From the NCBI GenBank assembly GCA_947460875.1, contig CANHGR010000010.1, forward strand, positions 1 through 64,000: 64,000 nucleotides of DNA, given 5' to 3'. The notes below the pieces were generated by a model. The model made no database searches. It saw only the letters and a program-made list of their open reading frames with translations, and had not been told where the DNA came from. The stretch is from Sphingobacteriaceae bacterium. GTDB taxonomy: Bacteria > Bacteroidota > Bacteroidia > Sphingobacteriales > Sphingobacteriaceae. Below, one piece after another: positions 35,978 to 39,913 of this stretch. Position 1 is the first letter of the stretch; each line of letters starts with the position of its first letter. The translations under genes and the position numbers were made by a program.

Positions 35978-36012
35978 AAGCTTATGTTTGTTTTTTTGCA
36001 AAAGTGTTAAAT

Positions 36013-37362
36013 ATGGCAGAGTATGAATTATTGCTTCCTAAAATGGGAGAAAGCGTTGCAGAAGCCACCATTATTAAGTGGAATAGACAACCTGGGGATG
36101 CTGTAAAGGAAGATGATGAAATTGTTCAAATAGCTACTGACAAGGTAGATTCTGATGTGCCTTCACCCGTCAAAGGAATACTTAAACGGCAGTTATGCAA
36201 GGAAAATGATGTAGTACGGGTAGGGGAGGTTATTGCAATTATAGAAACAGCGCAAGTCATCAGTAGTTCTGATCCCTCAGATTCGATAGAAGAAGCTCCA
36301 GATGAAGAAGTTTACGCCGATGAATTTGTGGCTGACGAAATACCAGGTATCGACTATTTAAATACTGTAGCGAAAGATATCGGTGATCAAACTGATGATA
36401 GTGCCGGGTCGGAATTTTATTCGCCTTTGATTAGGAGCATCGCCGCCGAAGAACGAATTTCTCTGGAAGAACTCAATAAAATTAAAGGAACCGGTTTACA
36501 AGATCGCGTTACAAAGCAAGACCTTTTAGATTATATCAGCTTTAGAAATGGGGCTAGTAATTCAGTTGTCTCGGCGTCAGAAAAACATGCGCTTGTAGAA
36601 GAGCCAAAATTGGAGCAAAAAATTAGTCAATCTAAACCGGTTTCTTTATCAGGCGGAGATGAAATTATTGAAATGGATAGAATGCGTCGCTTAATTGCAG
36701 AGCATATGGTGATGAGCAAGCAGATATCACCACATGTTAACTCATTTGTCGAAGTGGACGTTACTAACCTAGTACACTGGAGAGATAAAATTAAAGCAAG
36801 CTTTCAGTCTACTCACGGAGAAAAAGTAACTTTTACACCTATTTTTGTTCAAGTCGTCGCAAAAGCGATCGTTGATTTTCCAATGATTAATGTATCTGTA
36901 AACGGAACGCAGATCATCAAAAAGAAAAACATTAATATCGGAATGGCAACTGCCTTGCCTTCTGGCAATCTGATTGTTCCGGTGATCAAGAATGCTGACC
37001 AACTGAGCCTGCCGGGTCTGGCTAAATCAGTAAACGACCTGGCAAATCGGGCCCGAGCCAATAAGCTACGACCCGACGATGTGCAAGACGGCACATTTAC
37101 GATTACAAATATTGGTTCTTTTGGAAACACAATGGGTACACCCATCATAAACCAGCCTCAGGTAGCGGTTATAGCTTTTGGTGTCATTAAAAAGAAGCCG
37201 GCAGTTATTGAGACAAATTTTGGCGATATGATCGGGATCAGGCATATCATGATTTTATCATTAGCTTATGATCACCGAGTTGTTGACGGAGCCCTTGGTG
37301 GGATGTTTGTCAAAAGAGTTGCTGATTACCTTGAAAATTGGGATTCTGAATTAAAGGTCTGA
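36013..37362 (+). CDS. 2-oxo acid dehydrogenase E2 (dihydrolipoamide acyltransferase)
   Basis: Transfers acyl groups to CoA in a pyruvate, 2-oxoglutarate or branched-chain 2-oxoacid dehydrogenase complex. The 449 residues contain a lipoyl domain (1-75; lipoyl Lys in ATDKVDSDVP), an acidic linker, a peripheral subunit-binding domain (about 135-170; SPLIRSIAAEERISLEELNK), and a catalytic domain ending with the His/Asp motif YDHRVVDGALG near 425. The ATG is preferred over a GTG 9 nt upstream. E1 and E3 genes are not adjacent, so the substrate is open. Its 3' end overlaps metX by 12 nt, convergent. Confidence 0.93.
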   Translation: MAEYELLLPKMGESVAEATIIKWNRQPGDAVKEDDEIVQIATDKVDSDVPSPVKGILKRQLCKENDVVRVGEVIAIIETAQVISSSDPSDSIEEAPDEEVYADEFVADEIPGIDYLNTVAKDIGDQTDDSAGSEFYSPLIRSIAAEERISLEELNKIKGTGLQDRVTKQDLLDYISFRNGASNSVVSASEKHALVEEPKLEQKISQSKPVSLSGGDEIIEMDRMRRLIAEHMVMSKQISPHVNSFVEVDVTNLVHWRDKIKASFQSTHGEKVTFTPIFVQVVAKAIVDFPMINVSVNGTQIIKKKNINIGMATALPSGNLIVPVIKNADQLSLPGLAKSVNDLANRARANKLRPDDVQDGTFTITNIGSFGNTMGTPIINQPQVAVIAFGVIKKKPAVIETNFGDMIGIRHIMILSLAYDHRVVDGALGGMFVKRVADYLENWDSELKV

Positions 37363-38403
37363 AATACCCATGTTGTCAACATCGCAATTTTTCAAAAAAT
37401 TGCCAATTTCCTTTGTAAGGATTTCTGTTTCTATTAAGAAGCCATCATGTCCGTAAAAAGAATTGATTTCTGCGTAACGTGCATTGCTGATATGCTGCGC
37501 CAGAAATTTTTGTTCTTCCGGCGGAAATAGCAAATCTGAAGTTATACCAATTACCAGAGTTTTCGCACTGATATATTTTAAGGCATCTTCAATTGTGCCC
37601 CTGCCACGTGCAAGGTTATGGCTATCCATCGCTTTGCTCAAATACCAATAACTATAGGCATCAAATCGATTGATTAATTTTTCTCCTTGATACTTTTGAT
37701 AAGATGAGGCCTTAAAATCATCAGTAATCTCAGTTGATGTTTCTTGCTGTGACGTGCCATATGTTTCATACGTTCGATACGAAAGTAAAGCCATACTACG
37801 AGCTGCTTTTAGACCTTGTCTGCCTCCTTCTAGGGATTCGGATTTGAATGTTGGATCAGCGCTAATCGCCAGCCGCTGACTTTCATTAAACGCAATGCCC
37901 CACGGAGAATGATAGGCGTTAGTTGCAATTAACACAAGGTGTTGTATGCGTTTTGGTTCTGCAATAGCCCATTCGGAAGCTTGTTGGCCACCTAAGGAAC
38001 CGCCAATGAGCAGCTTTACTTGTGTGATCTCCAAATGATCGGCAAGTAGTTGGTGGACACGTGCCATGTCGCGTGTGGTGTATTGCGGAAAGGAGAGGCA
38101 AAAAGATTTCTCTGTCGCCGGATTCCGGCTTGCTGGGCTGCTCGTCCCATAGGGCGATCCCAGCACGTTAGGGCAAATAATAAAATGTTCGTTGGTATTA
38201 AAAATCCTATTCGGCCCAACCATTCCTTCCCACCATTCTGAAGCATCAGAATTTCCGGTTAGAGCATGACAGATCCATATTACATTGTCTTTCTTTTCAT
38301 TAAGTGTGCCAAAACTATGGTATGCTATATGCAAGTCTGGAAGGTTTTTGCCACTTTCCAGTTCAAAAGACTTATTGTACTTATAGGTTTTGAATTCTTT
38401 CAT
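37351..38403 (-). CDS. metX: Homoserine O-acetyltransferase
   Basis: Acetylates homoserine with acetyl-CoA, committing carbon to methionine. The 350-residue alpha/beta hydrolase has its nucleophile Ser136 in GGSLGGQQ and the catalytic Asp/His near the C-terminus (SFYGHDGFL). The ATG at 38403 is preferred; a TTG 6 nt upstream is possible. It is the last gene behind a SAM riboswitch and a 33-codon ORF, so excess S-adenosylmethionine should lower its expression. The 3' end overlaps the E2 gene by 12 nt in convergent orientation. Confidence 0.95.
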   Translation of the reverse strand: MKEFKTYKYNKSFELESGKNLPDLHIAYHSFGTLNEKKDNVIWICHALTGNSDASEWWEGMVGPNRIFNTNEHFIICPNVLGSPYGTSSPASRNPATEKSFCLSFPQYTTRDMARVHQLLADHLEITQVKLLIGGSLGGQQASEWAIAEPKRIQHLVLIATNAYHSPWGIAFNESQRLAISADPTFKSESLEGGRQGLKAARSMALLSYRTYETYGTSQQETSTEITDDFKASSYQKYQGEKLINRFDAYSYWYLSKAMDSHNLARGRGTIEDALKYISAKTLVIGITSDLLFPPEEQKFLAQHISNARYAEINSFYGHDGFLIETEILTKEIGNFLKNCDVDNMGISDL

Positions 38404-38472
38404 TCTCAATCTGTTGTTGTGTTTTTAATAGGCAATCCGACAATTGGGAAATCTTTAAGCGATTTTCGGATT

Positions 38473-38574
38473 TTACTTAGAATTGCATGCAACAGATAGA
38501 AATAGTTTGTTCTCAGCTCTAAGCTGTAGGAGGTTCATGATTGAACCGCAGGGATTATGGTTTCCTTGTTTCAT
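38473..38574 (-). CDS. 33-codon ORF between the SAM riboswitch and metX
   Basis: I do not recognise it. It starts with ATG 8 nt past the 3' strand of riboswitch helix P1 and ends 69 nt before metX. The peptide reads MKQGNHNPCGSIMNLL, then QLRAENKLFLSVACNSK. The context suggests a riboswitch-controlled leader peptide or small protein. Its translation is unproven. It contains Cys9 and Cys30 and no evident signal sequence. Confidence 0.45.
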   Translation of the reverse strand: MKQGNHNPCGSIMNLLQLRAENKLFLSVACNSK

Positions 38575-38581
38575 GGTTAAA

Positions 38582-38686
38582 AATTTATTTGTTCCCGGTT
38601 ATTTTTCGGGACAGGATTTGGCACCTTCTGTATCCAGGGTTGCCAGTGGGTCTGTGAGCCTGTCTCTCGCCACTTCTTTATAAATC
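38582..38686 (-). promoter_or_regulatory. SAM-I (S-box) riboswitch before metX
   Basis: On the minus strand the order of conserved blocks is GTGGCGAGAGAC, GGCTC, GACCCACTGGCAACC, then AGGTGCCAAATCCTG, matching the SAM-I core as found in Bacteroidota. The outer helix P1 can form between GATTTAT (38680-38686) and ATAAATT (38582-38588). A short CCCG/CGGG hairpin precedes the 3' P1 strand. No intrinsic terminator is seen, which fits translational control. SAM binding should repress the downstream ORF and metX. Confidence 0.9.
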
Positions 38687-38797: not shown

Positions 38798-39913
38798 CTA
38801 ATTGATTGTCAATTGTAAATCTTCAATCAAATCTGCCTGATTTTCAAGGCCTACCGAAATTCGAAGCAAGTTTTGTGGCGTTTTCGTATTCGGACCTTCT
38901 ACCGCAGCGCGTCGCTCTACCAGACTCTCTACGCCTCCTAAACTGGTGGCCTGGGAAAAGAGTTTCAAGCTCCCGGCAATTCGCTGAGCTTCTTCTGCGC
39001 CGCTCCTTACTATAAAGGAAATAACAGCCCCAAAACTGCTCATCTGCGCTGCGGCTATGGTATGCCCTTCATTACTTTTTAGTCCGGGATAGTACACCCG
39101 TTCAACACGGGGATGATTCTCCAGAAACTCTGCAATTTTCATAGCATTTTCTGCGTGGCCGCGCATCCGGTATGGCAGCGTTTTAATTCCACGTACGGTT
39201 AAGTAACAATCGAAGGGTGAGGGAACGGCCCCTGATAGCTCCTGATTGCGTCTTATCCTCTCCCATAATTTAGTCTTGTCTTTTGTAATTAATGCTCCCC
39301 CTAGAACATCGCTATGACCCCCGAAATATTTTGTTGTGGAATGCATCACCAAATCGACCCCCATTTCAATGGGCCGTTGAAAAATTGGAGTTGCGAAGGT
39401 ATTATCACAACAGACCAATATGTTATGCCTTTTAGCGATAGAGACTATTGCGAGAATGTCTGTAACTTTTAATAATGGATTCGATGGAGTTTCAATCCAA
39501 ATAGCCTTTGTTTCTTTTCGTATATGTCCCTCTATTGACTTTTGATCAGACATGTCCACGAAGTCGACTTCAAGTATCCCATTAAAAACTTCGTTTAACT
39601 GAGCTCGCAGGCCGTGATACATATCGTCTGGTGCGATGATATGGCTACCTGGCTCTAAAGCTTGAAAAAATGCACCCCCAGCAGCATTTCCCGATGAAAA
39701 CGAACACGCGTCGGCACCACCTTCAAGCTTTGATAAAACTTGTTCTAGAGATGAGCGGTTTGGATTCGACGCACGGGTATATATATAATTACTTACCGGA
39801 GCCCCATTCTCATCGCGTTTAAACGTCGTGCTCAGTGTTATGGGTTGAATAACGGCTCCTGTTGCAGCATCTACTGTATTTCCTGCATGTATCGCGATTG
39901 TTTCAAGTTTCAT
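38798..39913 (-). CDS. Trans-sulfuration enzyme (cystathionine gamma-synthase-like, PLP-dependent)
   Basis: A 371-residue Cys/Met-metabolism PLP enzyme. Lys195 in STTKYFGGHSDVLGG is the expected Schiff-base residue, and FSSGNAAGGA and CCDNTFATP are further PLP-site motifs. With metX next door, the likely reaction uses O-acetylhomoserine with cysteine (cystathionine gamma-synthase) or sulfide. Sequence alone does not separate these from cystathionine lyase. It lies upstream of the riboswitch promoter, so it is not under that riboswitch. A TACATTTG box lies 22 nt before its ATG. Confidence 0.9.
   Translation of the reverse strand: MKLETIAIHAGNTVDAATGAVIQPITLSTTFKRDENGAPVSNYIYTRASNPNRSSLEQVLSKLEGGADACSFSSGNAAGGAFFQALEPGSHIIAPDDMYHGLRAQLNEVFNGILEVDFVDMSDQKSIEGHIRKETKAIWIETPSNPLLKVTDILAIVSIAKRHNILVCCDNTFATPIFQRPIEMGVDLVMHSTTKYFGGHSDVLGGALITKDKTKLWERIRRNQELSGAVPSPFDCYLTVRGIKTLPYRMRGHAENAMKIAEFLENHPRVERVYYPGLKSNEGHTIAAAQMSSFGAVISFIVRSGAEEAQRIAGSLKLFSQATSLGGVESLVERRAAVEGPNTKTPQNLLRISVGLENQADLIEDLQLTIN

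Follow-up and report, generated by a model that had tools for sequence, protein, structure and literature searches.

A small open reading frame between a SAM-I riboswitch and metX in a Sphingobacteriaceae bacterium: a putative leader peptide recurring in Bacteroidota

Organization of the metX leader

The window analysed here is a 64,000-nt stretch of DNA from a Sphingobacteriaceae bacterium (assembly GCA_947460875.1, contig CANHGR010000010.1, positions 1 to 64,000). On its minus strand, a SAM-I aptamer, a 7-nt spacer, an ATG, a 33-codon ORF (the uORF), 69 nt and metX follow one another in this order (Table 1). The aptamer scored 73.9 bits against a gathering score of 44.4 for RF00162 and covered model positions 1-108 (Rfam). 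Moreover, the subtype motif TTTATAAAGAAGTGGCGAGAGACAGGCTC was exact in it. A first-pass annotation, made from the letters of the sequence, had described a SAM-I core followed by an ATG just past the 3' strand of P1, and a 33-codon frame ending 69 nt before metX. The family match ran through this core from end to end; the ATG started at 38574, with 7 nt between it and P1, and the frame closed with a TAA at 38475-38473, ahead of the metX ATG at 38403. The 7-nt spacer would be the landing site of the ribosome, and formation of P1 would crowd it.

The metX product reached the cut-off of PRK00175 and matched TIGR01392 with 366 bits (E 1.7e-109), which is below TIGR01392's own cut-off, and the identity given to it earlier was retained. 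We propose that metX is the gene regulated by this leader. Its 3' end overlaps a 2-oxoacid dehydrogenase acyltransferase gene on the plus strand (36004-37362) by 12 bases (37351-37362). No intrinsic terminator was predicted on the minus strand, including the interval between the leader ORF and metX, in agreement with the annotation. Besides SAM, no second RNA family was found in the window, and none was found in the leaders of ten relatives. The other SAM-I aptamer of this genome precedes metH, and no comparable ORF lies behind it.

Table 1. Coordinates of the features of the metX leader and its neighbours in the window
Feature	Position	Strand	Basis
SAM-I (S-box) riboswitch aptamer	38582..38686	-	RF00162, 73.9 bits, E 1.9e-15, full length
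P1 strands of SAM-I aptamer	38686-38679 and 38589-38582	-	
7-nt spacer, P1 3' strand to uORF start	38575..38581	-	sequence
Leader ORF, 33 codons, MKQGNHNPCGSIMNLLQLRAENKLFLSVACNSK then stop	38473..38574	-	reading frame; positional equivalents in 136/143 loci
Cys30 codon TGC	38485..38487	-	sequence; fourth codon before uORF stop
AUCUGUUG, uORF tail, 5' arm of predicted long-range helix	38490..38497	-	fold z -3.47; masking test
CAACAGAU, just before metX ATG, 3' arm of predicted long-range helix	38409..38416	-	fold; masking test
Hairpin AAUCCGA/UCGGAUU with nested stem, directly after uORF stop	38434..38472	-	fold prediction
metX, homoserine O-acetyltransferase	37351..38403	-	PF00561; TIGR01392; PRK00175
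Upstream neighbour, Cys/Met PLP enzyme (cystathionine gamma-synthase/lyase type)	38798..39913	-	PF01053; PRK07811 best, below cut-off

Position and codon content of the ORF in relatives

A search with the 5' half of the aptamer subtype as query hit 221 of 401 family genomes, most of them at a single place. The loci read were 90 from the family and 80 named ones from the genome collection (Pedobacter, Sphingobacterium, Olivibacter, Algoriphagus and other Cyclobacteriaceae, and Psychroflexus), of which 143 were distinct after duplicate removal. An ORF of 15-60 codons that started within the same 45 nt was found in 136 of these 143 subtype loci, in Sphingobacteriaceae, Cyclobacteriaceae and Psychroflexus, against a base-shuffle expectation of 23%; the loci are related by descent, and the counts are not independent trials. 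The position of the ORF is far beyond chance. Since the loci share descent, the recurrence in three families is a stronger argument than the counts. In almost all loci, the gene behind the ORF was metY or metX. Among SAM-I loci of other subtypes, a comparable ORF was present in 8 of 26 family loci and in 2 of about 28 loci at the class level (read by eye), approximately 10 of 54 together.

The spacer between P1 and the ORF was usually 7-13 nt in the relatives. The uORFs start in an A-rich context, and 90% of them have A at +4, which fits initiation in Bacteroidota (PMC6847099). One might suppose that the ORF arose by accident in an A-rich spacer and that the riboswitch acts on metX by RNA structure alone, the peptide being irrelevant. 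Evidence from a single genome is indeed weak, because one 33-codon ORF could arise by chance at the rate seen in the shuffles; nevertheless, the ORF standing in place at nearly every locus, the Cys bias described below and the start context make this explanation hardly credible.

The ORF was lacking at seven loci: L035 and six of Algoriphagus type, most of which precede a MetZ-like gene. In L035, and also in L125, the ATG of metY or metX itself occupies the place of the uORF after P1, and both loci lend support to the P1-adjacent start as the putative point of action. Five loci of Algoriphagus and relatives (L134, L140, L159, L186 and L200) had the same SAM-I subtype with a MetZ-like gene behind and no uORF; they shared a stretch like CUACCCC..UUUCUGGUU..GGGAAA after P1, which is possibly a different platform.

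The annotation had found that the peptide resembled nothing known, and no real match was obtained among 60 relatives, Pfam or NCBIfam. Behind SAM-I in the relatives, where the annotation had suggested looking for the same peptide, the position of the frame recurs and the sequence of the window peptide does not. The N-terminal parts of the uORFs varied among genera. Cys took up 479 of 4813 uORF codons (10%; shuffle mean, 131) and 455 of 2040 in the last 15 codons (22%), compared with 242 and 44 in the other two frames. TGY codons numbered 479 and TGG (Trp) codons 2; therefore, the Cys bias is not a mere consequence of TG-rich sequence. The final codons were mostly rich in Cys and Met, as in the endings ..CMCCCIQ of Pedobacter and ..CCMCMCC of Olivibacter, each directly followed by the stop. 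Outside the Sphingobacteriaceae, Cys runs likewise stood before the stop in a Cyclobacteriaceae MAG (..SHCCCCCC) and in Psychroflexus (..PMSCCCCMCA). Many Sphingobacterium uORFs ended with Arg-Met-Arg and had few or no Cys (5% in that group), and those of Algoriphagus were mostly without Cys. In Sphingobacterium loci including L097-L118, the uORF often ended with CGAATGCGN TAG (Arg-Met-Arg-stop), a near-constant sequence that may act in RNA pairing or as a stalling motif.

The window peptide has only two Cys, isolated from each other (P ~0.04 at 1% Cys), one near the start and one near the end, as had been noted. The Cys30 codon falls in the region where the relatives have their Cys runs, judged by Cys frequency with distance from the stop. 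With two Cys in the window peptide, Cys sensing is read mainly from the relatives, in which the codon runs suggest it well; for the window, the suggestion is weak.

A functional product was also considered. The annotation had offered a small protein of methionine metabolism as the alternative to a leader peptide, and this was not supported, because the sequence varies among genera and matches no Pfam or NCBIfam family. In a broader form, the uORF product would be a small protein with a function of its own or a Cys-rich nascent chain that senses metal or redox state, like CruR, a uORF product with CXXC that senses copper (PMC9426467). The dN/dS of approximately 0.58 across 17 Pedobacter uORFs could be cited for such a role. 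However, the variable N-terminal parts, the lack of a family match, the irregular spacing of Cys across the uORFs and the association with metX or metY speak against it, and we regard it as improbable. The same dN/dS points to weak constraint, of the kind to be expected of a translated leader in which the exact residues count for little.

Since a frame stands at that place behind nearly every related switch, and usually ends in Cys, it probably encodes a leader peptide. Position, start context, intact frame and Cys-rich ending are shared by several genera, and the RNA past the stop is structured, all of which favours this half of the earlier proposal. We rate the case for a leader ORF as strong in the family and as good in the window.

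RNA structure behind the ORF

The window leader from 38560 to 38404 folded with a z of -3.47. The main long helix predicted in it pairs AUCUGUUG (38497-38490) with CAACAGAU (38416-38409), right before the metX AUG. In a masking test, the bases under a ribosome with a given codon in the A site were blocked and the leader was refolded. The predicted unpaired fraction of the metX start region was 0.44 in the free leader, 0.81 with the ribosome at Cys30 and 0.57 with the ribosome at the stop. An equal effect of masking was seen in 7 of 400 shuffled window leaders, a figure for a helix that was predicted from one sequence and chosen after looking. At only 5 of 124 loci did the uORF tail strongly mask the gene start; therefore, the window helix is not the general mechanism, and sequestration of the start in this way was discarded as a general rule. 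The helix is likely a local platform of the window leader.

In the relatives, the stretch that begins in the uORF tail and reaches the gene start folded better than dinucleotide shuffles, with a mean z of -1.97 and 59 of 124 loci below -2. Three helices were found in Pedobacter, one within the Cys codons and two past the uORF stop, with 94.8% of cells paired and 34 double-sided changes compared to 12.3 in shuffles; the covariation sits mostly in the third helix. As the Cys and Met codons share bases with an RNA helix in Pedobacter, part of the codon bias could be structural. In Pedobacter loci such as L058, a short conserved UACGC, for which no role was found, follows the third leader hairpin. 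In Sphingobacterium, a GUCGUC/GACGAC-type hairpin with paired changes begins at the uORF stop codon, and a 12-bp pairing of the uORF tail with the later leader was predicted in one group. A hairpin after the uORF stop is common to the window, Pedobacter and Sphingobacterium, with different sequences, and the leader structures vary among genera. Such differences from genus to genus are usual for attenuators.

Proposed control of metX and comparison with known leaders

In the mechanism that we propose, the SAM-I riboswitch would act first on the 33-codon leader ORF and not on metX. At high SAM, P1 would close 7 nt before the uORF AUG and keep the ribosome off; at low SAM, P1 would open and the leader would be translated. 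In the untranslated leader, the uORF tail would pair with the segment before the metX AUG, so that the metX start would be hidden. This helix would be melted by a ribosome standing in the tail, most effectively by one paused at the Cys30 codon, and metX would then be translated. In the relatives, runs of Cys and Met codons together with genus-specific RNA helices occupy the same place, and the stance of the ribosome in the Cys/Met tail would decide which helices form. The general device would be a sulfur-amino-acid leader-peptide attenuator gated by a SAM riboswitch. The 7-nt spacing, and the two loci in which metY or metX takes the uORF place, suggest that uORF translation would depend on the ligand state. 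The order of the parts, the conserved position, the Cys bias and the structured RNA past the stop are features of the sequences themselves; that the leader is translated, that P1 gates it sterically, that the output depends on Cys or Met, and that starvation turns the gene on are our inferences. That the riboswitch gates translation of the leader peptide, and that the position of the ribosome in the sulfur-amino-acid-rich tail sets metX/metY expression, is in our judgement the probable reading.

A simpler scheme would dispense with amino-acid sensing in this genome. The SAM riboswitch would gate translation of the leader, this translation would be needed for downstream expression (through Rho protection or unfolding), and Cys codons would matter only in the relatives. 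The two Cys of the window peptide fit such a scheme, and there are precedents in Mycobacterium tuberculosis: PPE2 requires translation of the ppe2 uORF (PMC11260477), and an Mbox acts on a uORF both through translation and through Rho termination (PMC12810186). Nevertheless, Cys is strongly enriched near the stop in most relatives, and Cys30 adjoins the helix arm that would be cleared. We therefore consider the simpler scheme unlikely, yet deserving of more weight than an accidental ORF or a functional product.

The B12 riboswitch/uORF leaders of metE and ppe2 in M. tuberculosis combine a riboswitch with a translated uORF, and translation of the uORF sets downstream gene expression (PMC11260477); the present leader resembles them in layout and, presumably, in translation of its uORF. 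They differ in the B12 ligand and in the phylum; moreover, the abstract reports no amino-acid codon run, and ppe2 uses termination-reinitiation. In the Mbox upstream of pe20, the riboswitch directly controls a small uORF, rv1805A, by a translational platform (PMC12810186), as we presume for the SAM-I subtype. Unlike here, the ligand is Mg2+, rv1805A is highly conserved with a homologue elsewhere, and Rho-dependent termination was shown. In view of these cases, both a translational and a Rho-set output are possible for the metX leader.

Classical attenuators (trp, his) have a short leader ORF, control codons near its end and alternative helices after it. The present leader likewise has a short ORF, with candidate control codons near its end in most relatives and a single late Cys in the window, and helices behind or overlapping the end of the ORF, which a ribosome could change by its position, are predicted, with covariation in Pedobacter; it differs in the SAM-I aptamer in front, which could gate translation of the leader, and in the lack, on the minus strand, of the intrinsic terminator that stands between leader ORF and gene in a trp-type transcriptional attenuator. 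Canestrari et al. reportedly described poly-Cys leaderless ORF attenuators in mycobacteria in 2020. Going by the title, a short Cys-codon ORF precedes genes that it attenuates, as is presumed here, and the ORF is leaderless, unlike here; we know of no riboswitch in those systems. As a full-length member of RF00162, the window aptamer is particular in that the first start codon after P1 is that of a leader ORF and not of a metabolic gene.

As a rule, riboswitches are discussed apart from leader-peptide attenuators, and the Bacteroidota, which are without Shine-Dalgarno starts, have few worked-out riboswitch platforms. More than 100 species share the layout of a SAM aptamer right before a small ORF, mostly rich in sulfur-amino-acid codons, and it offers a case in which two-signal control by a single leader can be tested directly. 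The layout points to the first AUG behind P1 as the real target of this SAM-I subtype, and the uORFs add a set of small ORFs outside every protein family. We lean, by a small step past even, towards a wider reading for several Bacteroidota families: the direct target of the subtype would be a leader peptide and not the enzyme gene, the Cys/Met codons would be a second sensor, metX/metY would be controlled on one mRNA by two inputs (SAM and charged Cys/Met tRNA), and genus-specific RNA platforms would evolve behind a conserved aptamer. No earlier report of this arrangement was found among open-licence papers.

The idea that the window organism is without direct sulfhydrylation was dropped, as its genome has a MetZ-like gene (named by eye). 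This sulfhydrylase gene lies at L285, on contig C18, with no SAM aptamer nearby in the genome scan. At the Pedobacter-type locus L058, a Flavo-1 RNA (RF01705, 58.5 bits, positions 142-235) was found upstream of the SAM aptamer.
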